DNA of 64,000 nt from Hippopus hippopus (Eukaryota > Mollusca > Bivalvia > Cardiida > Cardiidae), in NCBI GenBank assembly GCA_946811185.2, contig OX328102.1:18849194-18913193 (forward strand), in the 5' to 3' direction. The notes beneath the pieces were generated by a model. That model saw nothing but the letters and a program-made list of their open reading frames with translations. It was not told where the DNA came from and ran no database searches. Position numbers and translations under genes: made by a program. This document shows positions 2,841 through 64,000 of the stretch, piece by piece; position 1 is the first letter of the stretch, and the number at the start of each line of letters is the position of its first letter.

Positions 2841-3134
2841 TATTATCACCTGCCGAACGCGGAGGAATATAGTTTTAGTGTTGTCCGTCTGTCCGTCCTT
2901 CTCTCCATCCTTCCGTCCGTCCGTGTGTCCTTCTGGGACAATATCTCCAATACCATTCGACGGTATTTCGCGAACTTTATACGTGTGTACAATAACCCAT
3001 TCCGCCGATATACTTTTTTTTAAAATTGATTTGATGAAAAATGGCCGACTGGGAGCAATTTTGAGTTACGCGGTTGCGTAAATTTTTGAAAAGATCTTTT
3101 TTGGTGGGGGATATCATTTCAATGAAATTGCCTG
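2841..3134 (+). mobile_element. Family C hairpin element, short full-length copy
   Basis: The left end (CACCTGCCGAACGCGGAGG) can fold on itself and is followed by a GTCCGTCTGTCCG-type microsatellite at 2883-2930. The right end carries GGGGGATAT, then hairpin ATTTCAATGAAAT at 3116-3128, then TGCCTG before T. A second copy at 24635-26061 has the same ends. It has no tandem core, so it shows the minimal form of the family. It is non-coding; open frames over it are chance. Confidence 0.7.
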
Positions 3135-3592
3135 TTTCAATTATTTTTGTGACATTATTGGTCCTCAAGGTTATAATTAGTTGTAGTATTTTTTTTTTTG
3201 TTTCTGAATTTAATCTATATTTGCTTTGCAGGTTTCATGGGAGTGTTGTTTGTCATGGCTCTGCAGAACCCAAGCATAGCACAATTGAAACCTATGAATA
3301 AGTAAGCTGTGGCATGAAAGCTGTAATAAATCTGAGATACTATTAAAAGTGATGTAAAACACATCCCAGAGACTTAAGAAATAATCTGCAAATGCTTTCA
3401 TTGATATGTATAACATGTGGTTTTGTTCTAAGAGATATAGTGAGCTTGCTTACAATTTAGGCACTGTTTGGAAAGTAGTTGTTATGGTGGAAGGTAATCC
3501 ACATATTGCTTACCTTCCAAAATATCTCCATTTTAGACCCAAGCAAACCTTTCCATCTGTTTTATCTCCAAACCATATGTTTATCAAGACCA
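3135..3592. other. No recognised gene or element
   Basis: AT-rich spacer. A candidate acceptor (TTTGCAG before 3231) precedes a short open stretch ending at a stop near 3303, without a convincing donor or family match. Confidence 0.5.
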
Positions 3593-4062
3593 GGGCCCGG
3601 TTTCACGAAAAATCTTAAGTCCGTACTCAACTCAACTGAGTTTACAGGCTTAAGTCCGTCCATCGCTTTCCCTATCATCAAGAATTCGCTGCAGAGTGTC
3701 TTCGAGGGTCAATCTACGGTTCGCCATTTTACCTTCGTTTTCGAGAAGAGACTGACCAAAGTAAACACGCGTTTTTATTTGCCAAAATTTCACTTGATCC
3801 GATAGTTTCTTTGGAAATAATGACGTAAAATCACATGGTTTCTATATTAGTCCATGTCTACACACTTTATGAATGAATATACTGATAGTAAAAGCGAAAA
3901 CGAGGCAAATTACTTAGGCAACCCCCCCCGGCACAGATTGAAGTCACGTTTAGCACTGATAGGCGAGATAGTGCGGCGTGAACTGTGTCCGCGCTTAGCA
4001 GGAAAAGGGTTAAAGTATTTCAAAGGGATCAGAAGATACGGAGCAGACAAAATGTGTTACTG
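3593..4062. mobile_element. GGGCCCGG-ended DNA element remnant
   Basis: Starts with GGGCCCGGTTTCACGAAAAA followed by a CTTAAGTC motif; the same start occurs at 6206. A short open stretch on the minus strand begins near 3729 (MANRRLTLEDTL) and runs toward this terminus before breaking, which could be the N-terminus of a lost transposase. I found no matching right terminus, so the end is arbitrary. A separate GACGGACAGACAGAC microsatellite follows at 4069-4097. Confidence 0.4.
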
Positions 4063-4394
4063 ATGGACAGATAGATAGACGGACAGACAGACAAAGGCTA
4101 AAAAACAGTCAAATAACACCGTACTCAGTGGTGCATGAAAAAAGATTTAAGTCCATTAAGTCCATCAAAGGGTACAATTTGAAAAATGGCACTGATTACA
4201 TTCAGCCGTCACAAACACACAGGGAACATCAAATTATGTAATAAATGTTTGTATTTAATGCAGATGACACGAAGAAATTAGCAGGTGTTAAAATTTCTAA
4301 ACTTTAGCTCTGTATCATCTCAAATTTATTTTTGAAGACTAACCAAAAAATACTGAAATAAAAAACTTGGCAGAGAATGCATTTTTAAAACATA

Positions 4395-11618: not shown

Positions 11619-11859
11619 TAGCTCACCTGAGCATATAGTGCTCGGGGTGAGCTAATGTGATTGGCCAATGTCCGTCGTCCGTAGTCCGTCTGTCTGTCCG
11701 TCCGTAAACTAATTACTAAAAAATCTTCTCCTCTGAAACCCCAATCAAATTTCAATGAAACTTCACAGAAATGATCCTTAAGGTGGTGCATTTTCAGAAT
11801 ACTTCAAAGATTTGAATTCCATGAAGAACTCTGGTTGCCATGGCAACCGAAAGAAAAAA

Positions 11860-12760
11860 ACTTTAAAAATCTTCTTGTCCCAAACTGTAAGGGCTAGAGC
11901 TTTCGTATATGGCATGTAGCATCATCTAGTGACCCTCTACCAAAATACTTCAAATTATGGCCCTAGTGTGGAAATTGGCCCTATGTTGTGGGTTCTCGGA
12001 TTTCACATAGAGATGAAGAAAGAAATCTTTAAAAATCTTCTTGTCCCAAACCGTAAGGGCTAGAGCTTTCATATATGGCATGTAGCATCATCTAGTGACC
12101 CTCTACCAAAATACTTCAAATTATGGCCCTGGTGTTAAAAATTGGCCCTATGTTGTGGGTTCTCGGATTTCACATTAGGATAAAGAAGGAAATCTTTAAG
12201 AATCTTCTTGTCCCAAACTGTAAGGGCTAGAACTTTCATATTTGGTATGTAGCATCATCTAGTGGCCCTCTACCAAAATACTTCAAATTATGGCCCTAGT
12301 GTTGAAAATGGCCCTATGTTGTGGGTTCTCGGATTTCACATAGAGATAAAGAGGGAAATCATTAAAAATTTTCTTGTCCCAAACTGTAAGGGCTAGAGCT
12401 CTCATATATGGCATGTAGCACCATCTAGTGACCCTCTACCAAAATACTTCAAATTATGGCCCTGGTGTTAAAAATTGGCCCTATGTTGTGGGTTCTCGGA
12501 TTTCACATAGAGATAAAGAAGGAAATCTTTAAAAATCTTCTTGTCCCAAACCGTAAGGGCTAGAGCTTTCATATTTGGCACGTAGCATCATCTAGTGGCC
12601 CTCTACCAAAATACTTAAAATTATGGCCCTGGTGTGAAAATTAGCCCTATGTTTTGGGGTCTCGGATTTCACATAGAGATAAAGAGGAAAATCTTTAAAA
12701 ATCTTCTTGTCCCAAACCGTAAGGGCTAGAGCTTTCATATTTGGCATGTAGCATTATGGT
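11860..12760 (+). repeat. Tandem array, about 164-bp unit, 5 to 6 copies
   Basis: Units start with AATCTTCTTGTCCCAAAC near 11869 and 12033 and recur to 12710. Each has AAGGGCTAGAGCTTTCATAT, then CATCTAGTG and CTCTACCAAAATACTTCAAA. A related unit forms the core of family B elements. Confidence 0.9.
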
Positions 12761-12883
12761 GTTGAGTCTTCTTGCAAGTAGTTGTGGGAAAGAGGTTGAT
12801 CACCATTATATCTTGAAAAGAGTCAACTCAATACTGATCTGCTAAAATATTAATTAATTTCTTGAGCATCTCTGCAACAATTA

Positions 12884-13067
12884 CAGTAAACTTTGCTTAT
12901 TACTATATTGCTTAATACAATATATTGCTTATAATGACGTTAATCCCTTGGTCCCAACAGGGTCTCTTTTTATAAGAATATACATCAGTTAAAACAATAT
13001 TCAGATAAAACGATATGATTTCTTCGGTCCCCTGAGTATCATTATAAGTGGAGTTCACTGTATTGTT
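12884..13067. mobile_element. MITE with ACAGTAAAC-type inverted ends
   Basis: Left ACAGTAAACTTTGCTTAT and right end, read on the other strand, ACAGTGAACTCCACTTAT are inverted repeats. The middle holds CTTATAATGACG and AAAACGATATGATTTC. Non-coding. Confidence 0.55.
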
Positions 13068-13215
13068 AAATCAGAGTATATTTGCAATGAATAACTTTTT
13101 ATTGTAAATTTGATTGCAAATAAATAAAGCACAACATAACCCTATTTTGGGCTGTCGCAGATGTCAACCCGTACCAGGTATGTGCCACTATTGGGTAACA
13201 CGGATTCTTTATAAT

Positions 13216-13588
13216 TAAGAGATATAGTAAAACATGTATTAAGCGACCACTCAAGGGACTGCCAAAATTGGTCACTTTAGAAAATGGTCTCTTAATGCAA
13301 CAAAAACTTACTCAGATTACATGGAGTGGCAACATTTCTTGCACTCAAATAATACCTTACTTTCAAGAAAAGCTTTTGTTGGTAATACTCATTACAATAC
13401 TCTCACTTAGACGATTGTAATAAGTACTAACAGCATAGGATTTAGCTCAGCATAAAGGCTTTAATCCATGGGGCATTCAATTCCAGCTAGTCTTATATAT
13501 TTCAACAGAGACATTGGAATTCCTATCGCTTAATAAAAGTGTTGGCTTAATAAACGTAGTCGCTTAGCTAAGCAAGATCAACTGTATT
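13216..13588. mobile_element. Second MITE with GTAAAAC / AAGCGACC-type ends
   Basis: Left AGTAAAACATGTATTAAGCG and right CGCTTAGCTAAGCAAG...CAACTG are imperfect inverted repeats. The body mentions GGTCACTTTAG and GGTCTCTTAATGC, typical of MITEs with 'AGTAAAACCTC...' ends. Confidence 0.5.
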
Positions 13589-13856
13589 GCCCTTTGACAA
13601 ATTGGAATTCATGAACAACTCTGGTTTCCATGTCAACTGCTGAAAAAAAAATCAACCCAAACACAAAGCCTACAACTTAATTGGCAACAGTAGCACTCTA
13701 CCAAAGTACGTCGAATTGTGACCTTAGGAAAAAAAAAAAAAGTGCTTTGTTGTTGGATCCCAGTTTCCACATCCAAATAAAAGATCTTTTAAAATCTTCT
13801 TTCATCCAAACATTAACCCTAGAGCTTTCATATTCAGCATGGACTGGTGGATAGTT

Positions 13857-13920
13857 ATGCTCCCATAAGGGCGAGGATATAGTCGCCACTTCGTCTGTCT
13901 GTCTGTCCGTCCGAAGCGAT
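13857..13920 (+). repeat. Hairpin left end of another element (family H)
   Basis: ATGCTCCCATAAGGGCGAGG folds back on itself and is followed at once by GTCTGTCTGTCTGTCCGTCC. Same start syntax as families A to J; no right end identified. Confidence 0.55.
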
Positions 13921-14113
13921 TTCTCAACAACTACTTGACGGCTCTTGTATGCTAATAGCATTTACCAAATTTCTTCCTTGGAATCACAAAAAGTCCTTTG
14001 TAGTCACAATGTGGGATCAAATATGTAAAGAGTGTATTCTTGGAATCCTCCTGTTCCATATTGTATGGCCCACAACATACATTTGGCATGTGATTCTGTC
14101 TGAAAACCCATTA

Positions 14114-14150
14114 TCAGCTCACCTGAGCATAACATACTCATGGTTAGCTT
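14114..14150 (+). repeat. Extra family A left-end foldback
   Basis: AGCTCACCTGAGCATAACAT followed by ACTCATGGTTAGCT: the A-type 5' foldback without its own right end. It may be a nested or duplicated start sharing the right end at 16130-16173. Confidence 0.6.
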
Positions 14151-14441
14151 TTATGTATCCTTGAATATGCGTCGCCAAAATTCCACTGTTTATTATATAG
14201 CTATCGGAATTCCAGCATAATCTTGATCCATCGCCCAGAATGTTTGTAAGGTTGTGAACATGAACACACTCAGCAACCACAATTCTGGCTCAGTCATACT
14301 CAAAATTTCCCTGGATGTTCATAATAACCTAAGGACAAATCTGATCAAAATGCGGACAAGCTAAAAGCATCAAAATAGGGGATCTTGATGACAATTCCAT
14401 TGTTTACACTCTAGGGCCTATAATTTCGACTCTATCATTTT

Positions 14442-16022
14442 TATGCCCCGCTTCAACGAAGTGGGGGTATATTGCTTTGCTAATGTCGGTAGGTCGGTCC
14501 GTCGGTCGGTAGACCTTACCTTGTCCGGATGATAACTAGACACAGAATTGATCTAGGTTCGTCAAATTTGGCACAGACATGCGTCTCGGAGTGTAGATGA
14601 TCCCTATTGATTTTTAGGTCAATCGGTCAAAAGTCAAGGTCACAGTGACCGTCAACATGTTGATATATAGACCAAACCTTGTCCGGATGATAACTAGACA
14701 CAGAGTTGACCTAGGTTTGTCAAATTTGGCACAGACATGCGTCTTGGAGTGCAAATGATCCCTATTGATTTTGAGGTCAATCGGTCAAAGGTCAAGGTCA
14801 CAGTGACCGTCAACATGTTGATATATAGACCAAACCTTGTCCGGATGATAACTAGACACAGAATTGACCTAGGTTTGTCAAATTTGGCACAGACATACGT
14901 CTTGGAGTGTAGATGATCCCTATTGATTTTGAGGTCAATCGCTTAAAGGTCATGGTCACAGTGACCGTCAACATGTTGATATATAGACCAAACCTTGTCT
15001 GGATGATAACTAGACACAGAATTGACCTAGGTTCGTCAAATTTGGCACAGATATGCGTCTCGGAGTGCAGATGATCCCTATGGATATTGAGGTCAATGAA
15101 AGGTCAAGGTCACAGTGACCATCAACATGTTGATATATAGACCAAACCTTGTCCGGATGATAACTAGACACAGAATTGACCTAGGTTCATCAAATTTGGC
15201 ACAGACATGCGTCTCGGAGTGCAGATGATCCCTATTGATTTTGAGGTCAATCAGTCAAAGGTCAAGGTCACAGTGACCGTCAACATGTTGATATATAGAC
15301 CAAACCTTGTCCAGATGATAACTAGACACAAAATTGACCTAGGTTCGTCAAATTTGGCACAGACATTCGTCTCGGAGTGCAGATGATCCCTATCGATTTT
15401 GAGATTAATCCATCAAAGATCAAGGTCACAGTGGCCTTCAACTTAATGATATTTAGACCTAACCTTGTCCAGATGATAACTAGACACAGAATTGACATAG
15501 GTTCTTCAAATTCTGTACATATATTTTTCTTGGAGTGTAAATGATCCCTATCGATTTTAAGGTTAATCCGTGAAAGGTCAAGGTCACAGTGACCACCAGA
15601 TGATTCCGGGCCTGCGCTGCCGTTCGCCACTTGAGCCATTTGCTAAAAAAAATTTAAAGTGTCTCAAAAATCATCATATGTGGCTCAACTTGTGGCTCCA
15701 ACATTTTATTCGTGTATTATCGGGGACGTAGTAAGCATCGAAGTTGACTGGGAAAAAGCGGAAGTCAAACGCGCGTGCCGAAGAGAAAATCGATAACCCA
15801 GTCTGTGTATCGGCGACTGTTTACAATCTTGTATGTATACACACGGCGGTGTGTATAATTATGCGAACTGTTGACAGATTATCACGTTTAACAATTGAAG
15901 TGGGCTATAAATCAAAAAGATGACCCCCAATCAATTCTTTTGATATCAGTTTATGACCTGTGCCACTTTCTGTATCAATGTGGCAGTAGGGGGGCATGAC
16001 TGTTTTACAAACAGACATCTTG
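14442..16022 (+). mobile_element. Family F hairpin element
   Basis: The left foldback ATGCCCCGCTTC / GAAGTGGGGGTAT (14443-14470) is followed by GGTCGGTCCGTCGGTCGG. The core is seven tandem units of 158 bp. The right end has GGGGGGCAT (complement of the left arm), hairpin CTGTTTTACAAACAG at 16000-16014, then ACATCTTG before T. It lies nested in element A1. Unique sequence at 15600-15980 between core and right end is unrecognised. Confidence 0.8.
14521..15600 (+). repeat. 158-bp tandem array, seven units
   Basis: The mark GTCCGGATGATAACTAGACA recurs at 14523, 14681, 14839, 14997 (one base changed), 15151, 15309 and 15467. Steps are 158 bp except one of 154. Each unit ends with AAGGTCAAGGTCACAGTGAC. 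Confidence 0.97.
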
Positions 16023-16173
16023 TCTTACCTGCTCTGATTGTTGGTATTGTCATATGGATGAAGCATTTTCAAAACTAAAACATTCCAGCAAAAAACAAGA
16101 GGCAAGTGGCCATAACAATGACAGCTGAGTTGCATTTCAGGTGAGCGATTTAGGACCATCATGGTCCTCCTGT

Positions 16174-17279: not shown

Positions 17280-18120
17280 AACGTTCATCTTAGTGAGACT
17301 GTGCAGAACCCAAGATCTGTTACTCTGTCTTCAATATTTTGGCCTTACTTTGCCCTTATTTTTTTTACATTTTGGATTTTTGTCCTGAGCATAACTTCCA
17401 AAGATTAAAGATACTGGCTTCAAATTTCATATACAAATGATTCATGCTGAGGACAAGTGCAGTGCACAAGATTCATAAGTCTGTATTCATTATTACTGTA
17501 GTTATTGCCTCTTTGGAGTTACTGCCCTTGTTATTTTACAAATTGGATTTTCGTCAAGAGTATAACCCAAAATATATTTATAAGAGCTATTGGCCTCAGA
17601 CTTCATATATCCCCCACCTCAAAGCAGGAAGGGATTATAGGAATGGCTTTTGTCTGTCGGTCTGTCCGTCCTGTTGCTGAGGACAAGTGCAGTGCACAAG
17701 ATTCATAACTCTGTCTTCAGTACTTTTGAAGTTATTGCCCTTTGATATTTTGCAAATAGGTTTTTTGACTGGAGCATAACTTCCAAAGTATTAAAGCTGT
17801 TGACATCGGACTTCATATACAGATTGATCATGTTGAGGACAAGTGTAATGCGCAGGATCCATAACTCTTTCTCCATTTTTTGGGAGGTTATTGACCTGAG
17901 TTATTTTCAAAGTGGATTTTTATCTGGAGCATAACTAACAAAGTATAGAAGCTATGGACTTCAAACTTCATTTAAAAATAGATTATGTTGAGGACAAATA
18001 CATTCATTACTCTGTCCTGGTTATTTTTTGAGTTTTTGCCCTTCGTTCATCCTCCGCCCTTGAAGGCCTAGGTCCCAGTAACAGGTCTAATGTTTGAAGC
18101 CCAGCTATTTTGTTTGCAGC
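17280..18120 (+). repeat. Family E tandem array with an embedded E left end
   Basis: Repeats of GCATAACTTCCAAAGTAT, then CAAACTTCATATACA and AGTGCAGTGCACAAGATTCA, at roughly 150-170-bp steps. At 17609-17640 ATCCCCCACCTCAAAGCAGG with AAGGGATTATAGG forms the E-type start, followed by GTCTGTCGGTCTGTCCGTCC. The array is cut by the family A cluster at 18131. Confidence 0.75.
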
Positions 18121-19167
18121 TTTCCTGTTTTTAGCTCACCTGAGCACAACGTGCTCAAGGGGAGCTTTTAAGATCAACCTGTGTCCGTCGTCAACAGTTT
18201 CTTTAAACATCTTCTCCTCCTAAACCGCTGGGCCAATTTGGACCAAACTTGGCTGGAATGTTCCTTGGGAGGTCCTCGTTAAAAATTGTTCACAGAATTT
18301 GATTCCATCAAAAACTCTGGTTGCCATGGCAACCAAATGGAATTTTCTAAGAAATTCTTTAAAAATCTGCTCTGAAACCGCTGGTGAGATTTTGGAATAT
18401 TTTCACAGAAATGTTCATTGGGTGACCCTTTTCAAAAATGGTTCGCGAAATTTTGATCCGTCAAAAAACATGGCCGTGGCAGTGGGTGGGGCTCCTTGCG
18501 TCAAGTGGTGTCAACAATTCTTTAAACATCTCCTCCCAAACCGCTGGGCCGATTTGGACCAAACTTGGCTGGAATGTTCCTTGGGAGGTCCTCTTTAAAA
18601 AGTTTTCATAGAATTTGATTTCATCAAAAACTCTGGTTGCCATGGCAACCAAATGGAATTTTTTAAGAAATTCTTTAAAAATCTTCTCCTCTGAAACCGC
18701 TGGTCAGATTTTGAAATAATTTCACAGAAATGTTCCTTGGGTGACCCTTTTCAAAAATTGTTTGTGAAATTTTGATCCATCGAAAAACGTGGCCGCGGTG
18801 GGGGAGGGGGGCTGTTTGCATTCTTTAAAAATCTTCTCCTCTGAAACCGCTGGTCAGATTTTGAAATAATTTCACAGTAATGTGTCAACAATTCTTTAAA
18901 CAACTTCTCCTTAATTGCTGGGCCAATTAGAACCAAACTTTGCTGGAATGTTCCATGGGAGGTCCTCTTAAAAACTTGTTAACAGAATTTGATTCTATCA
19001 AAAACTCCGGTTGCCATGACAACAGAACGGAATTTTCTAAGAATTTTTTTAAAAATCTTCTCTGAAACCGCTGGTCAGATTTTGAAATAATTTCTTAGAA
19101 ATGTTCCTTGGGTGACCCTTTTCAAAAAGTGTTCGTGAAATATTGATCCATTGAAAAACATGGCTAT

Positions 19168-19187
19168 GGGGGGGGGGGGGGGGGGGG
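19168..19187. repeat. Poly-G tract, 20 bases
   Basis: Longest of several G-runs that sit at the same place in each sub-unit of the A2 cluster, after AAAACATGGC; others are near 18798, 19325, 20150, 20468, 20612 and 21276. Length may be affected by sequencing slippage. Confidence 0.85.
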
Positions 19188-21570
19188 CTCTTGGCATTAT
19201 TTAAAAATCTTCTCCTCTGAAACCGCTGGTCAGATTTTGAAATCATTTAACAAAAATGTTCTATCGGTGACCCTTTTCAAAAATTGTTCGCAAAATTTTG
19301 ATCCATCAAAAAACATGGCCATGGTGGGGGGGGGGGTGCTCCTTGCACTGTATTGACTTAAAGAAATTCTTTGAAAGTCTTTTTCTCTTAAACCATTCGT
19401 CAGATTTTGAAATAATTTCACAGAAATGTCCCTTAGATGCCCCTTTTGAAAAAATATTAGCGAAATTTTGATCCGTCAAGAAACAAGGCTGTGGTGGTGG
19501 GGGGCTATTTACACTATACAGACATGAAGAAATTCTTAAAATTTCTTCTTCTATGAAACAACTGGTCAGATTTTGAAATAATTTCACAGAAATGATCATT
19601 TGGTGCCAAATTATGCCCCTTTTTAGCTCACCTGAGGACAACATGCTCAAGGGGAGCTTTTAGGATCATGTTGTGTCCGTCGTCCTTCGTGCGGCGTCAA
19701 CAATTCTTTAAACATCTTCTCCTCCTAAACCACTTGGCCAATTTGGACCAAACTTGGCTGGAATTTCCTTGGGAGGTCCTGTTTAAAAATTGTGCACAGA
19801 ATTTGATTCCATCAAAAACTCTGGTTGCTATGGCAACCAAATGGAATTTTTAAAGAAATTCTTTAAAAATCTTCTCCTCTGAAACCGCTGGTCAGATTTT
19901 GAAAAAATTTCACAGAAATGTTCCTTGGGTGACCCTTTTCAAAAATTGTTTGTGAAATTTTGATCCGTCGAAAAACATGGCCGCGGTGGGGGAGGGGGGC
20001 TGTTCGCATTCTTTAAAAATCTTCTCCTCTGAAACTGCTAGTCAGATTTTGAAATAATTTCACAGTAATGTTCCTTGGGTGACCCTTTTCAAAAACTGTT
20101 TGTGAAATTTTGATCCGTCGATAAACATGGCTGTGGTGGTGGTTGTGGTGGGGGGGGGGCCTCTGCATTGTGCGGTGTCAACAATTCTTTAAACAACTTC
20201 TCCTAAACTGCTGGGCCAATTAGAACCAAACTTTGCTGGAATGTTCCTTGGGAGGTCCTCTTAAAAACTTGTTGACAGAATTTGATTCTATCAAAAACTC
20301 TGGTTGCCATGACAACCAAATGGAATTTTCTAAGAATTTTTTTTTAAAAATCTTCTCCTCTGAAACCGCTGGTCAGATTTTGAAATAATTTCATAGAAAT
20401 GTTCCTTGGGTGACCCTTTTCAAAAAGTGTTCGTGAAATTTTGATCCGTTGAAAAACATGGCTATGGTGGGGGGGCTCTTGGCATTATTTAAAAATCTTC
20501 TCCTCTGAAACCGCTGGTCAGATTTTGAAATCATTTAACAAAATGTTCTATGGGTGACCCTTTTCAAAAATTGTTCGCAAAATTTTGATCCATCAAAAAA
20601 CATGGCCATGGTGGGGGGGTGCTCCTTGCACTGTATTGACTTAAAGAAATTCTTTGAAAGTCTTTTTCTCTTAAACCATTCGTCAGATTTTGAAATAATT
20701 TCACAGAAATGTCCCTTAGATGCCCCTTTTGAAAAAATATTAGCGAAATTTTGATCCGTCAAGAAACAAGGCTGCGGTGGTGGGGGGCTATTTGCACTGT
20801 ACGGACATAAAGAAATTCTTAAAATTTCTTCTTCTATGAAACAACTGGTCAGATTTTGAAATAATTTCACAGAAATGATCATTTGGTGCCAAATTATGCC
20901 CCTTTTTAGCTCCCCTGAGGACAACATGCTCAAGGGGAGCTTTTAGGATCATGTTGTGTCCGTCGTCCGTCGTCCTTTGTGCGGCGTCAACAATTCTTTA
21001 AACATCTTCTCCTCCTAAACCACTTGGCCAATTTGGACCAAACTTGGCTGGAATTTCCTTGGGAGGTCCTGTTTAAAAATTGTGCACAGAATTTGATTCC
21101 ATCAAAAACTCTGGTTGCCATGGCAACCAAATGGAATGTTCTAGGAAATTCTTTAAAGATCTTCTCCTCTGAAACCGCTTGTGATATTTTGAAATAATTT
21201 CACAGAAATGTTCATTGGGTGACCCTTTTCAAAAAGTGTTTGCGAAATTTTGATCCGTCGAAAAACATGGCCGTGGTGGGGGGGGGGGGGGCTCTTTGCA
21301 CTGTATGGACTTAAAGAAATTCTTTGAAATTCTTCTTCTCTTAAACCACTGGTCAGATTATGAAATTATTTCACAGAAATGTTCCTTGGGTGCCCCCTTT
21401 GAAAAATTGTTCGCGAAATTTTGATGCGTCAAGAAACATGGCTGTGGTGGTGGGGGGCTATTTGCACTCTACGGACATGTAGAAATTCTTAAAAATTCTT
21501 CTTCTCTGAAACCACTGGTCAGATTTTGAAATAATTTCACAGAAATGATCCTTATATTATGCCCCTTTTT

Positions 21571-33185: not shown

Positions 33186-33201
33186 TTGTCAGTTTGCTTT
33201 T

Positions 33202-45119: not shown

Positions 45120-45244
45120 TAACAAGGTTTCTTAAAGTTGGCCCCTTTGATCAGAAACATGCAATATTACCAGAGCCTTTGTGGGGTTATTTAGTCTAGT
45201 GTGTACTTAACATCTACCGTGATCCATTTTTGTGTTACTATCAG

Positions 45245-52181: not shown

Positions 52182-52339
52182 TCATTGTATACAGATGTGA
52201 GACCTTAGCGTCAGACTGCACCATGTGTAAGGCATTGAAAAAAGATAGATTTAAATGTCATTGGTGCCAACAAGGTATCTGTAGTCATAAATCGTCTTGT
52301 GGAGCCAATGAAACATGTCCATTACCAGAAGTAACCAAA
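52182..52339 (+). CDS. Plexin-like receptor, fourth exon seen: PSI domain
   Basis: 158 bp: two bases complete the codon begun at 45347, followed by 52 codons ending in phase 0 before GTAATT. The peptide has eight cysteines in PSI order: YRCETLASDCTMC, then FKCHWCQQGIC, SSCG and ETCPLPEVTK. The C-x2-C and C-H-W-C spacing and the closing CP(L)P-x-VTK stretch fit the plexin PSI domain that precedes the IPT/TIG repeats. PSI domains are small disulphide knots that set the angle of the ectodomain. The acceptor ATGTTTCAG is good; the donor is weak and a family A element starts only about 17 bp beyond it. The next exon (IPT) is not in the window. Confidence 0.85.
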
Positions 52340-52356
52340 GTAATTATATTAATTGT

Positions 52357-53421
52357 TAGCTCACCTGAGCACAAAGTGCTCAAGGTGAGCTTTTTTGACC
52401 GTGCTGTGTCCGTCGTGTGTCGTCAACTTTTACCTTGTGTACGTTCTAGAGGTAGCATTTTCAGTACAATACTCATGAAACTTAGTCAGAATGTTTGTCG
52501 TGATGATATCTCAGACACATTTGAAAATGGGTCATGTTGGGTCAAAAACTAGGTCACTAGGTCAAATCTTAGAAATACCTTGTGTACGCTCTAGAGGCCA
52601 CATTTTCAGTCCAAAACTCTTGAAAGTTGGTCAGAATTACTGTCTTGATGATATCTTGTACAAATTGTAAAATGGGTCATGTCAGGTCAAACACTAGGTC
52701 AGATCTTAGAAAAACCTTGTGTACGCTGTAAAGGCCACATTTTCAGTCCAAAACTCTTGAAAGTTGGTCAGAATATTTGTCTTGATAATATCTTAGATCA
52801 GTTTGAAAATGGGTCTTGTCAGGTCAAAAACTTGGTCACTAGGTCAAATCTTAGAAAAATTTGTGTATGCTCTAGAGGCCACATTCACAGTGCAATACTA
52901 ATGAAACTTGGTCAAAATGTTTGTCTTGATGATTTATTGTGTGAGTTTGAAAATGGGTCACATCAGATCAAAAACTAGGTCACCAGGACAAACCTTTTAA
53001 ATAGCCTGTGTAGCTTTTGAGTCGAAATTTTCTGTCCAATACTTATAAAAATTAGAATGTTTATATTTTGATGATCAATACGATGAAGTTGGAAATGGGT
53101 CACATTGCCATGTCAAATCTTGGAAAAACCTTGTGTACACTCTAGAGACAACATTTTCTGTCCAATATTTATGAAAGGTGGTCAGAATCTTTGTTTTGAT
53201 AGTATCTACAATGGGAAAAAGGGCTATGTTTGGTTGAAAAGTAGGTCACTGAGGGAAATTCTAGAAAAAGCTTGTGGACAAGCTAGAGGACAAATTTTAA
53301 GTCCAATAATTATGAAAGCTTGATAGAATGTTTGTCATAATATCTCTAAAGAGATTGAAAATGGGTCAAGTTTGGTCAAGAAACTCAGGTGAGTGACTTC
53401 AGGGCCATCATGGCCCTCTTG
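52357..53421 (+). mobile_element. Family A hairpin element (A8), next to a splice donor
   Basis: The left foldback AGCTCACCTGAGCACAAAG / TGCTCAAGGTGAGCT is intact. The core has seven units of 138-147 bp (TCTAGAGGCCACATTTTCAG; GTCTTGATGATATCTT). Right ACTCAGGTGAGTGACTTCAG, hairpin GGGCCATCATGGCCC, TCTTG before TATT. Open frames at 52679 and 53105 are repeat translations. Confidence 0.85.
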
Positions 53422-53467
53422 TATTATTATTTATTGTTGTGATAAATACTGATGTCTCAATAATTTT

Positions 53468-54150
53468 CAGCTCCACTGGCTGAACACCAGTGAGCTTATA
53501 TCATGGCCCTGTGTCTTATCATGTGTCAGGGGTGCATGTGTGCATGCGTGCGTTATTTCAAACGCTTTCACCTCTGAAACCACTCATCTAGTTTTATTTC
53601 AGAATTTCTAAAAGAATTTGATTCCAGTAAAAAGTCTAGTTGCCATGGAAACAAAGCTATTTAAAATCTTTTAATTTTTTTTTTCTTTTCAAAAACTATT
53701 AGGCCATAGGGCTACCAAGTTAAGTATGTAGCTTCGAACTAATGAACGTCTACCAGAATTATTCAAGTTACAGCCTGTGGGTCAATATTAGCCCGGCCCA
53801 TGGTTCACCAGTTTTACATGGGCTTGTAATTGAAAACTGAGAAAATCTTCTAGTTCCTAACCATAGAGCATAGGGTTACTAAATTTTGTGTGTAGCTTTA
53901 TCTAGTGGACCCCTACTAAGATCTTTCAAATAAAAGCCTTTGAGTTAATATTGGCACTACCCCAGGGGTCATAAATTTTACATGGGCTTACATTGTGAAA
54001 ACTTCAAAAATCCTCTTGTTCTTTACCATAAGACCTAGGGCTAACATATTTAGCATGCAGCTTCATCTGTTGTTCAAATTACAGCACTTGGTTGAAAAAG
54101 GTGGCCCAACCCTGGGGGCATGGTAGTACATGAAGTATTAATTAAGCCTA
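53468..54150 (+). mobile_element. Family B element (B2), right end missing
   Basis: Left AGCTCCACTGGCTGAACACC with AGTGAGCTTATATCATGG, then TGCATGCGTGCG. Core units CATAGGGCTACCAAGTTAAG, diverged. Fades out near 54150 without a right hairpin. Confidence 0.65.
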
Positions 54151-54312: not shown

Positions 54313-55533
54313 TTAGCTCCACTGGCCAAAGGCCAGTGGGCTTATGTCATGGCCCGGTGTCCGTGCGTGCATGCGTGAGTTAACTTTTATTTCAAATATC
54401 TTCTTCTCTGAAACTACCCATCCAATTTGATGAAACTTCACACAAATGATCCTGCCATGGTCCTCTTTAGAATTTCTTGAATGAATTTGATTCATTCAAA
54501 AACTCTGGTTGGCATGGCAACAAAACTGAAGAATATTGAAAATCTTTGAAAATCTTCTTGTCTAAAACCTTAAAGCCTAGGGCTACCAAATTTGGCATGT
54601 AGCTTTATCTAGTGGACCTCTACCAAGTTTCTTCAAACTATAGCCCTGGGGTCAAATTTGGCCCCGCCCGGGGGTCACAAGTCTTACATGGGCTTATGCA
54701 GGGAAAACTTTAAAAATCTTCTTGTACCAAGCCATGAGGCCTAGGGCTACCAAATTTGGCATGTAGCTTTATCTAGTGGACCTCTACCAAGTTGCGTCAA
54801 ATTATAGCCATGGGGTCTAATTTGGCCCCGCCCCGGGGGTCACAAGTCTTATATGGGCTTGTATAGGGAAAACTTTAAAAATCTTCTCGTACCTATCCAT
54901 TAGGCCAATGGCTACCAAATTTTGCATGTAGCTTTATCTAGTGGGTATCTATCAAGAGTGCCCAAATTATAGCCCTTGGTTCAAATTTGGCCAAGCCCCA
55001 GTTGTCACAAGTTTTTCATGGGCTTATATAGGGAAAAATTTAAAAATCTTCTCATACCTAGCCATAAGGCCTAGGGCTACCAAATTTTGCATGTGGCTTT
55101 ATCTAGTGGGCCTCTACCAAGAGTGCCCAAATTATAGCCCTTGGGTCAAAATTGGCCCTGCCTAGGGGGCACAAATTTTATATCTGGCCTATATAGAGAA
55201 AACTTTAGAAATCTTCCTGTACTTAATCATAAAACCTAGGGCTACCAAATTTCGCATGTAGCTTTATCTAGTGGGGTCTACCAAGAGTGCGCAAATTATA
55301 GCCATAGGGTCAAATTTGATTCATCCCCAGGGGTCAGAAGTTTTACATGGGCTTATATAGTGAAATCTTTAGAAATCTTCCTGTTACTAACCATAAGAAC
55401 TAGGGCTACCAATTTTAGTCCTGTCTCAGGGGTCTTATGTTCAAAACCAATTGGCCAAGTATTGTAATGTTTGGCATGAAGGGATTTTATGTATTAGCCA
55501 GTGGAGCGATACAGGGCCATCATGGCCCTCTTG
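54313..55533 (+). mobile_element. Family B hairpin element (B3), complete
   Basis: Left foldback AGCTCCACTGGCC / GGCCAGTGGGCTTATGTCAT. Core of about 162-bp units (AAGGCCTAGGGCTACCAAAT; GTAGCTTTATCTAGTGGACC; GGGGTCACAAGT). Right GCCAGTGGAGCGATACA, an exact complement of the left arm over 11 bases, hairpin GGGCCATCATGGCCC, TCTTG before TT. Confidence 0.88.
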
Positions 55534-55621
55534 TTGTAGATATATCATAAAGACATTATGTTAGTATACCAGTTTTCTTTGAAATCATCAATGCCACAAA
55601 AGATATGGATTGATGGATGGA

Positions 55622-56031
55622 TTCATTTTCTGTCCAATACTTACGAAAGTTGGTAAGAGTTTATGTCTCGATGATACTTCAGATATGAATGAAAATGGGT
55701 CATGTTGAATCTAAAACTAGGTCACCAGGTCAAATATTGGAAAAACCTTGCATATGCTCTAGAGGCCACATTTTTCCTCCAATACTCATAAAAGGTGGTC
55801 AGAATGTTTCTTTTGATAAGTTGGAAAATGGGCCATATTGAGATAAAGAGCAGGTGACAAAGACAAATTCTAGGGGAAAAAAGCTTGTTTACACTGTAGA
55901 AACCACATTTTCAGTCCAATACTGATAAAAGTTTGTTAGAATGTTTGCCATAATGACTGAGAAGAGATTTGAAATGGGTCATTGGTCAAGTGGCTCAGGT
56001 GAGCAACTTCCGGGCCATCATGGCCCTCTTC
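55622..56031 (+). mobile_element. Family A element (A9), left end missing
   Basis: Three units with CTCTAGAGGCCACATTTT lead to GGCTCAGGTGAGCAACTTCC, hairpin GGGCCATCATGGCCC, TCTTC before TTT. Confidence 0.7.
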
Positions 56032-56455: not shown

Positions 56456-58220
56456 TATATACACCCGTCGAAGACGGGACGTATTATGGGATCACCCATG
56501 GCGTACGGTCGGGCGGGCAGGTGGGCGGGTGGCTTCCAGTTCTTTGTCTGGAGCATAACTTTGTCATCTCCAGTCCGATTGACTTGAAACTTGGCATTTG
56601 TGTTTGTTGCAATAATACGGAGTGCAGTGCGAAAGAACCATAACTCTACCTCGTACTGTCTTTGAGTTATTTCCCTTTGATTGTCATTTTTACAGCATTT
56701 TCTGCTTGTCCGGAATATAACTTTGTCATTTTTAGTCTGAACATCTTCAAATTTGGTATGCTTGATTGTTGAAAAATTACGGAGTGAAATGCACAAGAAC
56801 CATAACTCTTCCTAGCACGAATTTTGAGTTATTCCCCCTTAGATCTTCATTTTTATAGCATTTCTTGCTTGTCCGGAGCATAACTTTGTCATCTTTAGCA
56901 GGATTGAGTTGAAATATGGTATCCTTATTTGTTGCAATATTTGGAAGTGCAGTGCGCAAGAATTGTAACTCTACCTTGTGCTGTCTTTGAGTTATTTCCC
57001 TTTGATCATCATTTTTACAGCATTCAGTGCTTGTCCGGAATACAACTTTGTCATCTCAAGTCAGAACGACTTCAAACTTGGTATGCATGTTTGTTGCAAT
57101 ATTACGGAGTATAGTGCTCAAGAACAATAACTCTACTGAGCGCGGACTTTGAGTAATTCCACTTTGATCTTCATTTTTACAGTCCAGTTCTTTGTCCGGA
57201 GCTTAACTTTGTCATCTCCAGTCTGACTGACTTGAAACTTGGCATTTGTGTTTGCTGCAATAATACAGAGTGCAGTGCGAAAGAACCATAACTCTACCTC
57301 ATACTGTCTTTGAGTTATTTCCCTTTGATTGTCATTTTTACAGCATTTTCTGCTTGTCCGGAATATAACTTTGTCACTTTTGGTCTGAACATCTTCAAAT
57401 TTGGTGTGCATGATTGTTGAAAAATTACGGAGTGAAATGCACAAGAACCATAACTCTTCCTAGCACGAATTTTGAGTTATTCCCCCTTAGATCTTCATTT
57501 TTATAGCATTTCTTGCTTGTCCGGAGCATAACTTTGTCATCTTAAGTAGGAATGACTTGAAATATGGTATGCTTATTTGTTGCAATATTTGGAAGTGCAG
57601 TGCGCAAGAATTGTAACTCTATCTCGTGCTGTCTTTGAGTTATTTCCCTTTGATCAGCATTTTTACAGCATTTAGTGCTTGTCCGTGATATAACTTTGTC
57701 ATCTCAAGTCAGAACGACTTCAAACTTGGTATGCATGTTTGTTGCAATATTATGGAGTATAGTGCTCAAGAACAATAACTCTACTGAGCGCGGACTTTGA
57801 GTAATTCCACTTTGATCTTCATTTTTACAGTATTTCTTGCTTGTCCGGAGCTTAACTTTGTCACCTCAAGTCAAATTGACTTGAGACTTGGTAAACATGT
57901 TTGTTGCAGTTACGAAAAGTGCAATGCACTGGAGCCATAACCTTACCTAATGCCCTTTTGGAATTATTCCCTATTCATTATTTTTTTTTTACAGCTTTTA
58001 ATGCTTCTCTACAATATAACTTTGTCTTTTTATGTTGGAATCACCTGAAACTTTACATGCATATTTTCTTAACATTTGAGGATACATTTTATGCCTATTT
58101 CAATCACTTACATGATTTCTGCTGCACTACTATTTTCCTCTACCTGCCCTTTACGATTATTATCCCCCCTTGACAACTGGCGGTCGGACAGGCGTATCTT
58201 GTGACAATTTGCCGCTCTTG
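56455..58220 (+). mobile_element. Family D hairpin element with four-unit higher-order repeat
   Basis: Left ATACACCCGTCGAAGACGGG folds on itself; GGTCGGGCGGGCAGGTGGGC follows. Core of 161-163-bp units marked by CTTGTCCGGAGCATAACTTT. Units 1-4 (56540-57187) and 5-8 (57188-57835) are near-identical as blocks of about 648 bp. Right GACAGGCGTAT (two mismatches to the left-arm complement), then CCGCTCTTG before TTGGAG. E repeat continues on both sides. Open frames here are repeat translations. Confidence 0.8.
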
Positions 58221-58309
58221 TTGGAGTTTTAGACCAGCCTGAGTTTTTTTTAAAATTGTCCAGAGCTAACTTCCAAAGTATAAAAGCTATTGACTCAACT
58301 TCAAATATA

Positions 58310-59694: not shown

Positions 59695-61042
59695 TTAGCT
59701 CCACTGGCCGAAGGCCAGCGGGCTTATGTCATGGCCCGGTGTCCGTCGTCCGTCTGTCCGTGCGTGCGTGAATGCGTCCGTCCATCTGTCCGTGCGTGCG
59801 TGCATTAACTTCTATTTCAAACATCTTCTCTGGAACTACCCATCCAATTTTGGTGAAACTTCACAGAAATGATCCTGTCATGGTCCTCTTCAGAATTTCT
59901 TGAAAGAATTTTACTCCTTAAAAAAACTCTGGTTGCCATGGCAACAAAACTGAAAAAATATGAAAATCTTTGAAAATCTTCTTGTCTGAAACCATAAGGC
60001 CTAGGGCTACCAAATTTGGCATGTAGCTTTATCTAGTAGACCTCTACCAAGTTCTTCAAATTATAGCTCTGGGTTCAAATTTGGGCCCGCCCCGGGGGTC
60101 ACAAGTTTTACATGGGCTTATATAGTGAAAACTTTAGAAATCTTCCTGTACCTAGCCATAAGGCCTAGGGCTACAAAATTTTGCATATAGCTTTATTATG
60201 TAGGCCTCTTCCAACTGTCTTCAAATTATGACCCTGGAATCAAAGATGGCCCCATCCCAGGGATCACAATGTTTTACATGGTCTGATATAGTGAAAACTT
60301 AAAAAATCTTCCCGTACCTAGCCATAAGGCCTAGGGCTACCAAATTTTGTATGTAGCTTTATCAAGTGGGCCTCTACTGAAAGTGCTCAAAGTATAGCCC
60401 TGGGCTCAAATTTGGCCCTGCCCTGGGGGGTTACAATGCTTTACATGGGCTTATAGAGTGAAAACTTTAGAAAATCTTCTTGTTCCTGGGCTTATAGAGT
60501 GAAAACTTTAGAAAATCTTCTTGTTCCTAACTATAAGGCCTAGGGCTACCAAATTTTGCATGTAGCTTTATCGAGAGGGCATCTACCAAGAATGCCCATA
60601 TTATTGCCATAGGTCAAGTTTGGCCCAACCCCAGGGGTCACAAGTTTTACCTGGGTTTTTATAGTGAAACTTTAGAAATCTTCTTGTTACTAACTATAAG
60701 ACCTAGGGCTACCAAATTCAGTCCTGTCTCAGGGGTCTCATGTTTTACAGTGCCTTTTATTGAGGAAGCTTTGAAAATTTCTTGTTTTTAGCCACACATT
60801 CTAGACCTGTATTATTTGGTATAGGGCTTTATCTTGTGGACCTATACCAGGATTCAAGTAATTATAGCTCTGTGGTCAAAAATGGCTTTGCCTTGGGGTC
60901 ATAGCTTTCTCGTATGATTTTATAGAGAAAATTTTGTATGTCTTCTGGTTTAAAACCAATTGGCCAAGTATTGTAATGTTTGGCTGGTAGGGTTTTTACT
61001 TATTAGCCAGTAGAGCGATACAGGGCCATCATGGCCCTCTTG
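59695..61042 (+). mobile_element. Family B hairpin element (B4), complete
   Basis: Left foldback AGCTCCACTGGCC / GGCCAGCGGGCT, then CCGTCTGTCCGTGCGTGCG. Core of about 162-bp units (AAGGCCTAGGGCTACCAAAT). Near 60450-60520 a short stretch is duplicated (GGGCTTATAGAGTGAAAACT). Right GCCAGTAGAGCGATACA, hairpin GGGCCATCATGGCCC, TCTTG before TT. The left flank is family E; the right flank is not, so the insertion site has since been rearranged. Confidence 0.85.
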
Positions 61043-61435
61043 TTATCCAATTCTTACGAAACTGGCAAAGATTATTTGGTTTATCAAGTGATTGAACTCT
61101 ATTAAAAATGAAGAAAATCTAGTAATCAGTTTAGAAATAGCAGCCATTGGATGACAGTATTGTTTACTCATCAAAGTTCACATTATTAGTCACATTTCTT
61201 TGAAATTTCTTTGAGGATTGTTTATAATACTATGGGTACTGAAACCCTATCAAATTTGGCTGGATTCATAACAATTGGTTTTGAGAAATTGTACTTAAAT
61301 TTTTTCACTACTTGTTCAGTTCACCATACCTACTTATGCTGTCTTAGTGGGTTCAAGCCGACTTTTTTTGTGTGTTTTTGTCTTTTTCCTTCTTGCATCA
61401 TTAATTCATGATGTATGCTAGCAAAAAAGCAAAAT

Positions 61436-61476
61436 TACGGCCAGTAGAGCGACTTCAGGCCCTCAAGGGCCTCTAG
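61436..61476 (+). repeat. Right end of a family B-type element, left end missing
   Basis: GGCCAGTAGAGCGACTTCAG, hairpin GGCCCTCAAGGGCC at 61458-61471, then TCTAG before TT. The sequence before it (61050-61435) is not a recognised core. Confidence 0.7.
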
Positions 61477-62520
61477 TTATTTATTTTTAGTTTTACAGGC
61501 TGCACTAAAAGATCATTTAGAAAAATAAAATTTCCACTGCCGTGGCCTACTGTCCGGAAAAGAGGGTACCATTCGTGCAAAAAAAAAAATGTTTTTCTGC
61601 TACTAAAGGAGGGGTGTCCATAAGGCCCTTTTTTTGGGCTAGGATGGATTTTTGCCAAAATTTCCTGATTTGTACTACTATGTATTGGCTTTCATTTGGT
61701 GAAGTATTAAGATGCAGCGGCCATGTCTTCTATGGTATATACTTGAGAAAAGTGGGTGGGGTAATTTGATGTGATTTCACCTATGACTAAATTGCAAATA
61801 TCTTCCACTTGAAGCTGCAATTGATATTCATTCATTTCTTGTAGGTATTTACCCTATAAGAGGGTGTTAATGATGGAGACAATTTAAAACAAAATTCTCC
61901 AGCAATGTAGTTATAATCACTTTTTAAGTCGTACCTAAATTTTGCTTATTTTGCCATCTCCAACTTTGCAAAAAACCACAACATTGTTTTATCGATTAAT
62001 GGAAAACTAAGATATGTTGATATTATATGCTAGACATAGTTGACATTCCAAAATTATGAGGAATTTGCTCTGTGATGAACAACACTAGAGTTATTTGCCC
62101 TTGAAAAAGTGAAAAATGCTTATTTTTCTCATGTTCTGAAACTAAGCATACTAACAGTATGTAACAGATGACTAAACTCACTCAAACCTAAATTTTATAG
62201 ATGTTTGTCAGGAATAAGTATAGAATAAGTCATAGCATGTTGACCCTGACGTTTTTTCAAGGTCAAAGTGAGACCCAGATATCCAATCTGTGAGTGATAA
62301 TTCTCATAATGGGGTTGAACTAATAAATTTTTAAGTAGCAATTTAGGATTTCACATTTACTGCATACAAGAAATTTATAAGCCTGATGGTAAGGTTTAAT
62401 ATTGGTGGCATGGTAATGAATTACAGCTTGGTGACCTTGACCTTTTTCAACACAGTCACAATGAGGCCCACAGCTCTTTTTCAGGGAGGCAGATTCTCTT
62501 GTTGTGTTATTTAATTATTA
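61477..62520. other. No recognised gene or element
   Basis: AT-rich. Two TTGACCTTGACC / TTGACCCTGACG motifs near 62240 and 62440 resemble a pair of diverged repeat units. Confidence 0.45.
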
Positions 62521-62868
62521 TTAGTCCCCTACCAGCAAAGCCGAAGGGGACTTTAGGTTTGCATTCCGTCCGTCCGTCTGTCTGCATGCAAATCAGTTTT
62601 CCAGACTTTTTTCCTAAGCACTGGCAGATATTGAGCTGATTTTTGGTGTGTAAGTCAATCACTATGAGTTACAGATCAAGTTCGAGTTTCGTTCTGGTCT
62701 ACTAATTTTTGACGAAATTACGGGCCTTGGACTTAAAAATTTCATTGAAAAAACAGTTTTCCGGACTTTTTTTCTAACTGCTGGCAGATATTGAGCTGAT
62801 TTTCGGTGTGCAAGTCAACCAGCATGAGTTACAGATCAAGTTCGAGTTTCGTTCCGGTCCACTGATTT
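62521..62868 (+). mobile_element. Family J hairpin element, left part
   Basis: Foldback AGTCCCCT ... AGGGGACT (62523-62552), then CCGTCCGTCCGTCTGTCTG. Two core units 160 bp apart (CAGTTTTCCAGAC at 62594, CAGTTTTCCGGAC at 62754). Cut inside a T-run by a family B element at 62869. Confidence 0.7.
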
Positions 62869-64000
62869 TTAGCTCCACTGGCCGAAGGCCAGCGGGCTTA
62901 TGTCATGGCCTGTTGTCCGTCGTCCGTCCGTGCGTCCGTCCGTCCGTGCGTTAACTTTTTTTTAAAACGTCTTCTTCTCTGAAACTACCCATCCAATTTT
63001 GATGAAACTTCACAGAAATGATCCTGCCATGGTCCTCTTCAGAATTTCTTGAAAGAATTTAATTCCTTCAAAAACTCTGGTTGCCATGGCAACAAAACTG
63101 AAAAATTTTGAAAATCTTTGAAAATCTTCTTGTCTGAAACTGTAAGGCCAAGGGCTACCAAATTTGGCATGTAGCTTTATCTAGTGGACCTCTACCAAGT
63201 TTCTTCAATTTATAGCCCTGGAGTCAAAATTGGCCCTGCCCCGGGGGTTACAAGTTATACATGGGCTTATTTAGGGAGAACTTGAAAATTCCTCTTCTAC
63301 CTAGCCATAGGGCCTAGAGCTACCAAATTTGGCATGTAGCTTTATCAAGTGGACCTCTACCAAGATTGTTCAAATTATAGCCCTGGGGTCAAATTAGGCC
63401 CTGCCCGGGGGTAATAAGTTTTACATGGGCTTATATAACAAGTTTTACATGGGCTTATATAGGGAGAACTTTAAAATTCTTCTTTGACCTAGCCATGGGG
63501 CCTAGGGCGACCAAATTTGGCATGTAGCTTTATCTAGTGGACCTGTAGCAAGGGTGTCCAAATTATAGCCGAGGGTCAAATTTGACTTCGCTCCGGGGGG
63601 TAACATGTTTTACATGGGCGGGCTTATATAGGAAAATCTTTCGCATCTAGCTATAAGGGCTAGGGCTATCAAATTTTGCATTTAGCTTTATCTAGGGGGT
63701 CTCTATCAAGGGTGCCCAAATTATAGCCCAGGGGGTCAAATGTAGCCCCACCCCAGGGGGTCACAAGTTCTACATGGTCTTATATAAGGAAACTTTAATA
63801 ATCTACTTGTACATAGCCATATTTAGGCCTAGGGCTACCAAATTTTGCATGTAACTTTATATAATGGGCCTCTACCAAGAGGGCCCAAATTTTAACTTTG
63901 GGGGTCAAGTTTGACTCCACACCAGGGGTCACAAGTTTAACATTGGCTTTTATAGTGAAAACTTGATAAACCTGTGTCATGGATCACATATTTTACAGGG
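62869..64000 (+). mobile_element. Family B hairpin element (B5), runs off the window
   Basis: Left foldback AGCTCCACTGGCC / GGCCAGCGGGCT, CCGTCCGTGCGTCCGTCCG, GGTTGCCATGGCAACAAAAC, then six or so units of about 160 bp (CTAGGGCTACCAAATTTTGC). The right end is beyond 64000. Confidence 0.85.

Follow-up and report, generated by a model that had tools for sequence, protein, structure and literature searches.

Repeat elements among plexin exons

The window analysed here, a 64-kb stretch of Hippopus hippopus DNA (OX328102.1), carries exons of a plexin gene on its + strand at 1546..1641 (PSI domain 2; most elements lie downstream of this exon), 31756..31851 (first IPT/TIG domain), 43704..43809, 45244..45345 and 52190..52345 (PSI domain 3, the last exon seen). 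Plexin-A4 matches these pieces in the same order, from PSI2 through PSI3 (E 4e-11). The repeats that we describe as HINEs lie on the + strand, the plexin sense strand, most of them between plexin exons. Their family letters other than A were newly assigned in this analysis, and correspondence with the first-pass annotation of this DNA holds only for A. Further copies were taken from the same 1.07-Gb genome.

All A-family elements of the window are in + orientation. A1 (11620..16172) has a 5' foldback, a GTCC microsatellite and 166-bp units up to 12757, after which its interior holds other inserts (H, C1 and another A left end at 14117), and on its right side arm TCAGGTGAGC, a hairpin and CTCCTG; the element interrupts a piggyBac frame. 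A2 (18133..22156) has three tandem 5' ends (18133, 19625 and 20908) and one 3' end, A3 (24790..25958) has 11-bp arms and is nested in D2, and A6 (52358..53422) combines 10-bp arms with units of about 144 bp. A4 (32152..33188) is a degenerate A-like HINE, and in the A-like A5 (41276..42366) the arms are variant on both sides (CACCGGAG / CTCCGGTG). Three A-family 3' parts lie at 36655..37381, 39462..40624 and 55622..56030, with right arms at 37348, 40586 and 55994, respectively.

The B family, likewise on +, comprises B1 (33204..34782), whose 454-bp units include the microsatellite and which ends with CTAG, B2 (54315..55534; 11-bp arms, hairpin AGGGCCATCATGGCCCT, CTTG) and B3 (59698..61043; right arm with one mismatch), together with a 5' part (53469..54070, left end at 53470), a right end alone (61441..61477, CTAG) and the left part of a HINE that continues past the window edge (62872..64000). 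C1 (14441..16024, +) pairs ATGCCCC with GGGGCAT (7 bp) and has 158-bp units, a 3' hairpin and CTTG. D2 (24635..26062, +), with 11-bp arms, is split by A3 and itself lies within the 156-bp tandem body of element J (24227..27077, +; left end with microsatellite), and the copy D1 (2846..3140, +), without a tandem body, serves as empty-site paralogue for A3. E1 (39133..43304, to 43306, +) shows a T-run, a GTCT/GTCC microsatellite, a 3' hairpin and CTTG, and F1 (56460..58245, +) a 5' foldback CCCGTC...GACGGG and 162-bp units. Left-end-like stretches on + are G (62521..62870; foldback AGTCCCCT...AGGGGACT and microsatellite), H (13853..14000; microsatellite), I (17604..18000; microsatellite and 155-bp units) and the weak K (37782..38300) and L (21570..21800).

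Anatomy of the ends and insertion sites

The left arms are GCTCACCTGAG in A, GCTCCACTGGC in B and CCCCTGCCGAA in D. A complement of 10-11 bp to the left arm lies near the right end of A1, A2, A3, A6, B2 and D2, with subterminal inverted repeats of 10-11 bp in A and 11 bp in both B2 and D2; the right arm sits about 26-31 bp inside the right end, and beyond the arm the two ends are unlike. With at most one mismatch, GCTCACCTGAG occurs 15 times, compared to 0.44 expected from shuffling, and GGGCCATCATGGCCC has six exact occurrences, all on +. Arms are weaker in B1 and C1, where the mismatch-free part is no longer than 7 bp, and in B3, and none of at least 7 bp was found in A4 (not even one of at least 6 bp), in E1, where no arms match, or in F1 and D1, where a matching right arm was missing. 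Folded as single-stranded DNA, the six A and B left ends tested folded well (z -2.4 to -6.3). The eight right ends tested ranged from z +0.4 to -2.4; those of A, B and C form 6-8 bp stems before CTTG or CTAG at modest z values (-0.9 to -2.4), and the ends of D2 gave no significant fold (left z -0.9, right z +0.4).

A scan that treated both strands alike, for 9-bp arms after TT, a 3' hairpin and a CTTGT-type end, returned 21 matches on + and 0 on -, whereas 20 Markov resamplings gave between 1 and 8 per strand. A stricter version (foldback of at least 5, at least three microsatellite words) gave seven matches on +, of which 55225/59405 corresponds to no element and two join ends from different elements, and 3 in total over 20 resamplings. 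The first-pass annotation had proposed that at least seven sequence-unrelated families share one element syntax; this syntax is present in A, B and one D copy, and partial or absent in the others. For A and B, the families are also not unrelated in sequence, because they have a common body and an identical 3' hairpin: their bodies align at 68-76% identity (for example, 11719-12733 with 54394-55407, 68% over 1,040 bp). Bodies have been exchanged between end types.

Three natural empty sites were compared, namely the piggyBac frame cut by A1 at GTT|CAG, with Pfam matches to DDE_Tnp_1_7 and zf-Tnp_2 on its two sides, A3 in D2 as compared to D1, and D2 in the J body. At all three, insertion is into a T-run, with no target duplication detectable beyond the Ts, a TT duplication being indistinguishable from terminal Ts. 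Among 20 A copies retrieved from the genome by the A 5' end, TT or more directly precedes the element in 19. A right end with at most one mismatch lies 0.9-2.6 kb from the 5' end in 18 of the 20, each time followed by T (18/18); none was detected in the remaining two, L030 and L032.

Assignment to the HINE class

Several traits support the assignment of these repeats to the HINEs, non-autonomous Helentrons: T-run insertion, subterminal arms, a complementary arm at the 5' end, a microsatellite of GTCY type, tandem units resembling satellite DNA and a palindrome at the 3' end. Canonical Helitrons begin with 5' TC, end with 3' CTRR and insert between A and T. The A and B elements are not of this form: they begin with AGCTC after Ts and mostly end with CTTG before T, and only the CTAG of B1 and of the right end at 61441 fits CTRR. 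The Helentron traits found are subterminal inverted repeats, a 3' palindrome after the 3' subTIR, a 5' complementary inverted repeat with microsatellite, and TT insertion. As exceptions, D2 lacks the palindrome and E1 has a hairpin without an arm.

The layout is the same as that of 11 Cg_HINE elements of the Pacific oyster, as described in the parts of PMC7492417 covered here, from which the syntax was thus already known. Shared with these are the 5' subTIR and complementary inverted repeat, the GTCY-type microsatellite, satellite-like repeats, 3' subTIR, palindrome and TT insertion without TSD, as well as modules that only some of the elements share in related form, with no autonomous partner linked; the comparison covers layout. 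HINEs, DINE-1 and Helentrons, in the sections of PMC4067079 consulted, likewise have subterminal inverted repeats (12-15 bp in HINE-Mo, 13 bp in DINE-1), a 3' stem-loop and a T-rich target without target modification, and some carry a microsatellite or tandem repeats. The earlier reading of the elements as Helentron-associated, made from their end layout and T-run insertion, fits these published descriptions, and neither consensus ends lacking the arrangement nor a TIR transposase with matching ends and clear target duplications, the outcomes named as speaking against it, was seen. That the repeats are instead derivatives of TIR transposons (MITEs) with subterminal repeats is highly improbable: short inverted repeats do occur on both sides, and similar elements have at times been classed as MITEs (PMC4067079, in part), but the right arm is internal, the ends are unlike beyond it, the 3' hairpin is one-sided and no duplication beyond the Ts was seen.

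For the systems of PMC4067079, autonomous partners could be recognised by their high identity, the criteria being arms identical over at least 11 bp and 80% identity across the final 60 bp, whereas none was identified here. The genome has 73 matches to Helitron_like_N, with a longest open frame of 2,017 aa; no autonomous element with A, B or D ends was linked. Because two copies of a Rep element are 99.9% identical throughout both 2.5-kb stretches, its 3' end was not delimited. Pattern matches in viral and genome contigs outside this genome (L001-L008) were chance matches; in BLAST against the window, L004 and L005, from two actinobacteria, matched over the 21-22 bp scan word alone, and the other six (L001-L003, L006-L008) gave no match.

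Strand agreement of neighbouring copies

The strand of these HINEs is locally uniform in the samples taken. In the window, the 27 arms of families A, B and D at assigned ends (at most one mismatch) fit + without exception, and microsatellite clusters number 25 on + (16 taken as left ends, 9 internal or unrelated) and 1 on -. Around the 20 A copies elsewhere, with a fixed 2.7 kb omitted as the central copy, neighbours within about 5 kb were on the same strand in 21 cases and on the opposite strand in one, although one downstream neighbour each at L030 and L032 could be part of the central copy, as these have no right end. Four samples 50-100 kb from the window were concordant in 8/8 clusters (8:0). 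For adjacent copies matching the exact pattern, among the 100 of 176 copies listed, 14 of 16 pairs less than 600 kb apart agreed (permutation p = 0.002, with the 600-kb cut chosen after the data were seen), and beyond 600 kb there was no agreement (22:34, bins from 0.6 to 8 Mb).

Discordant cases are L026:8928-9552, L037 with one HINE per strand (the only HINE-bearing one of three fixed-mark stretches), and the pairs C7:28678985/28810553 (131 kb) and C6:2052793/2511956 (459 kb). The sole possible minus-strand left end of the window, a GTCT/GTCC cluster after a T-run at 4077..4140, is also discordant. A number of the neighbours may instead be duplications or pieces of a single element (C6:35.79-35.82 Mb).

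Along the HINE direction, the flanks have a GC skew of +0.030 (15/20 loci, p = 0.0017) and a weaker TA skew (p = 0.07); among four more stretches close to the window, one has a negative GC skew (L043, -0.054). T-runs of at least five are near-symmetric between strands (526:462). Cg_HINE integration is reported in both orientations, and agreement between neighbours, analysed here, is not treated in the parts of PMC7492417 covered. No report of strand agreement among neighbouring HINEs was found in the literature searched, which included parts of PMC7492417, PMC4067079, PMC5371812 and PMC10030826.

Probable strand-selective insertion and its alternatives

We consider it probable, at roughly 60%, that HINEs insert strand-selectively via a target strand exposed asymmetrically by the replication fork or by transcription. 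A Rep/helicase/endonuclease from another element would copy the HINE as one DNA strand, by putative rolling-circle movement, and the copied strand would be joined between the Ts of a T-run. Most probably the single-stranded intermediate joins the template of the lagging strand, if a fork is the exposing process, or else, in transcribed genes, the non-template strand, and the direction of insertion would then record that of fork or transcription. Of the two we favour the fork, since agreement persists over distances of up to about 0.5 Mb, taken here as longer than most genes; in plexin, the sole gene seen, the HINE direction fits transcription equally well. More tentatively, and at somewhat less than even odds, HINE strand may be a fossil record of the direction of the fork (most likely) or of transcription, with domains roughly half a megabase long.

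The bacterial IS200/IS605 elements, whose transposase is Y1, differ in transposase and ends and have no family relation to HINEs, and the fork link is one that we infer here. They work alike, being single-strand elements that insert on the strand given by one host direction, and they record fork direction (PMC5371812, in the parts covered). If this fork link holds, HINEs would be an animal counterpart of this fork-coupled insertion. If the coherence is genome-wide, it would bear on how eukaryotic rolling-circle transposons choose their target strand, and would allow the direction of replication or transcription to be read from sequence alone in HINE-rich genomes.

That transcription sets HINE strand, through copies that insert, or persist, in sense relative to host genes, appears rather unlikely, although the + copies do lie on the plexin sense strand, mostly between exons. 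Gene sense strands often have positive GC skew, as do the HINE flanks. The signal AATAAA occurs 6 times in sense and 19 times in antisense in HINE DNA, so that antisense copies could be culled; outside HINEs, however, it is present on both strands (46 sense and 50 antisense in 36.6 kb of the window, 128 and 112 in the flanks of the 20 loci) and is thus tolerated. The coherence, moreover, extends over hundreds of kilobases, taken as more than one ordinary gene, and the only gene of known strand is plexin. In the fetched loci, a search for coding exons whose strand is known returned mobile-element frames or nothing (10 frames, Pfam).

Local agreement could also arise with no strand preference, from tandem or segmental duplication of HINE-bearing chromosome pieces; in favour of this are the tandem 5' ends of A2, three C6 copies 15 kb apart and the C7:10.9/11.0 Mb stretches, which are 88 kb apart and 99.9% identical. 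We regard this as very unlikely, since many concordant neighbours match different families (K, L, C1, F1, A4, B) and, of 53 cross-locus pairs of non-HINE repeats in the same loci, no more than 31 run in the direction of the HINEs (31:22). One control component of 133 copies (69:64) was left out because it contains a palindromic repeat, which makes strand ambiguous. As a point against strand-selective insertion, majorities within the control families were above chance (51/61 copies compared to 44.4 expected), mostly in two-copy families, and families of at least three copies split 1:5, 3:3, 1:3 and 2:1.

Anatomy of the repeat elements

The first-pass annotation had proposed that the lettered repeat families of the window (positions 18849194-18913193 of contig C7 of G000, a 1.07-Gb genome comprising 34 contigs) share one order of parts. 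Scanning both strands for a 9-bp arm close to TT with a complement at a distance of 200-5000 bp, followed by a hairpin and a C[TC][TA][GC]T end, revealed 21 matches on the plus strand and 0 on the minus strand; in 20 Markov resamplings, each strand gave 1-8 matches. Requiring a foldback and a microsatellite as well, we obtained seven matches in the window vs three summed across 20 resamplings, although one of the seven is no element and two pair the ends of different elements. Arms of 10-11 bp are present in copies A1, A2, A3, A6, B2 and D2, and shorter ones in A5 (8 bp), B1 and C1 (7 bp each); the B3 arm has one mismatch, and a search of A4, E1, F1 and D1 returned no arm of at least 7 bp. In A5, both arms are altered in concert (CACCGGAG / CTCCGGTG). 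The left ends of A and B (n=6) fold well as single-stranded DNA (z -2.4 to -6.3), the left-end fold of D2 is not significant (z -0.9), and right ends (n=8) range from z +0.4 (D2) and -0.9 (A3) down to -2.4. According to the arm scan and folding, the proposed order thus holds for the main families and only partially for the others.

The families had also been described as unrelated in sequence, which does not hold for A and B: their bodies show 68-76% identity in alignments of 159 to 1,040 bases, and the six exact plus-strand copies of GGGCCATCATGGCCC form the right ends of four A and two B elements. Moreover, A ends occur with two body types, having units of ~165 bp and ~145 bp, a module exchange like that published for oyster HINE groups (Cg_HINE; PMC7492417).

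Insertion into T-runs

Three natural empty sites are found in the window. A1 splits a piggyBac transposase frame (10688-11619 and 16175-16639), which reads ...GVDLSDQIV to 11619 and continues with QYYDVLRK from 16175; the exact join, GTT/CAG, was taken from the sequence, as computed in-frame joins retain at least one extra codon. DDE_Tnp_1_7 and zf-Tnp_2 matches flank the insertion, one on each side, and the transposase piece has 42 relatives, including two from the bivalves Mizuhopecten and Mya. A T-run of D2 contains A3, and D1 represents the D2 paralogue without this interruption; D2 itself is located within the tandem body of element J (24227..27077). No target duplication was visible beyond Ts at these three sites. 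We further fetched 20 A copies from elsewhere in the genome via their 5' end, so that 5'-end agreement partly reflects selection. In 19 of the 20, TT or more immediately precedes AGCTCACC, in bases outside the query; in the exception, L035, the first bases diverge after TTTTT. The right end TTTCAGGTGAGCGATTTAGGACCATCATGGTCCTCTTG is exact in 11/20 copies and has at most one mismatch in 18/20, always followed by T, and was not found in the remaining two (L030, L032). T-run insertion and the A ends in genome copies are features of non-autonomous Helentrons (HINEs; PMC4067079), supporting the suggested Helentron link: the syntax is of a known kind.

Of note, A2 (18133-22156) carries three tandem A 5' ends, the second and third preceded by ATTATGCCCCTTTTT, and one 3' end, an arrangement that could stem from a tandem array made by rolling-circle replication or from local duplication.

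HINEs mostly share one strand locally in the stretches sampled

The aspect worth following is the coherent strand of these elements. Allowing one mismatch, all arms of A (15, three of them tandem 5' ends of one element), B (9) and D with assigned ends (3) fit plus-strand elements and none fit minus-strand elements; an extra D match lies at 29161, away from any end. Microsatellite clusters number 25 on the plus strand, 16 taken as left ends and nine as internal or unrelated, and one on the minus strand (4077-4140). The latter has a T-run, lacks a right end and is possibly a minus-strand HINE left end.

Elsewhere in the genome, 40 scored A matches divide into 24 plus and 16 minus, and the A left-end pattern occurs 95 times forward and 81 times reverse (reversed control, 0). 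In 9.9 kb fetched around 20 of the 40 matches (ranks 2-21; 2.7 kb omitted for the central element), neighbours were present at 14/20 loci, 21 on the same strand vs one opposite (binomial p 1.1e-5), a count in which pieces of a single element may figure as neighbours; in L030 and in L032, one neighbour may belong to the central copy. Among three stretches at fixed 20-Mb marks only one held HINEs, one per strand. An I/J/F type body is involved in both of these local strand discordances. Stretches offset by -100, -50, +50 and +100 kb relative to the window had 8/8 clusters on the plus strand. For the first 100 places listed of the 95+81 matches (C1-C8; copies <5 kb apart collapsed), adjacent copies had same:opposite ratios of 5:0 (<100 kb), 4:1 (100-350 kb), 5:1 (350-600 kb), 4:8 (600-1000 kb), 4:6 (1-2 Mb), 5:9 (2-4 Mb) and 9:11 (4-8 Mb). 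Agreement below 600 kb, a cut set after the data were seen, was 14/16 among the matches listed (permutation p 0.0019).

Controls and possible causes

Non-HINE, non-palindromic repeats at the same loci matched the HINE direction in 31/53 cross-locus pairs; their family majorities covered 51/61 copies vs 44.4 expected, somewhat above chance. T-runs of at least five (526 along vs 462 against the HINE direction) are too evenly distributed to explain the 21:1 ratio. Once HINEs were masked, GC skew along the HINE direction in the flanks of the 20 loci was +0.030 (positive in 15/20, Wilcoxon p 0.0017) and TA skew was +0.010 (14/20, p 0.07). Because T skew exceeds G skew in HINE DNA, residual HINE sequence would be expected to appear in TA first. 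The window's own flanks likewise had a GC skew of +0.030, and the four nearby stretches had +0.037, +0.012, +0.003 and -0.054.

A rolling circle would transfer one strand, and the target DNA may be exposed asymmetrically by strand. In bacteria, the direction of the fork is recorded by IS200/IS605 elements, whose mobile form is single-stranded (PMC5371812), and the half-megabase scale of agreement favours replication forks. Transcription setting the HINE strand fits as well: the plus strand is the sense strand of a plexin-A-like gene, five exon pieces of which (1546 to 52345), once concatenated, give a collinear alignment with Plexin-A4 (E 4e-11), and the majority of elements lie between these pieces, some following the last. 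Both this case and the GC skew are consistent with transcription, too. Possibly, selection removed antisense copies, given that AATAAA occurs 6 times sense and 19 times antisense in HINE DNA, yet 46 sense AATAAA are tolerated in window DNA outside the HINEs. The gene has a ~30 kb intron (1641 to 31756).

Candidate autonomous partners and other mobile elements

Helitron_like_N had 73 matches in the genome above the curated cut-off, some being pieces of one element. Their open frames reach 2,017 aa, several exceeding 1,600 aa, and are candidates for the autonomous partner; in the oyster study, the HINEs could not be tied to the 10 autonomous elements that it retrieved from Repbase (PMC7492417). 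Downstream of Rep matches, two stretches 88 kb apart (L044/L045; C7:10.91 and 11.00 Mb) share 99.9% identity across the 2.5 kb covered.

Mariner-type transposase pieces (HTH_48, DDE_3) lie at 4566-5617 of the window; visual inspection places inverted ends near 4410 and 5690. A palindromic repeat (AAAACATTGTGGGAAAAGGAGAAAATGCTGG plus complement) is abundant and probably a foldback MITE; it occurs at 421-490, 8960-9010 and 9740-9790 and at several loci. L028, a stretch from elsewhere in the genome, contains a Penelope-like frame (2218-4593, minus strand) that matches RVT_1 and, weakly, GIY-YIG.
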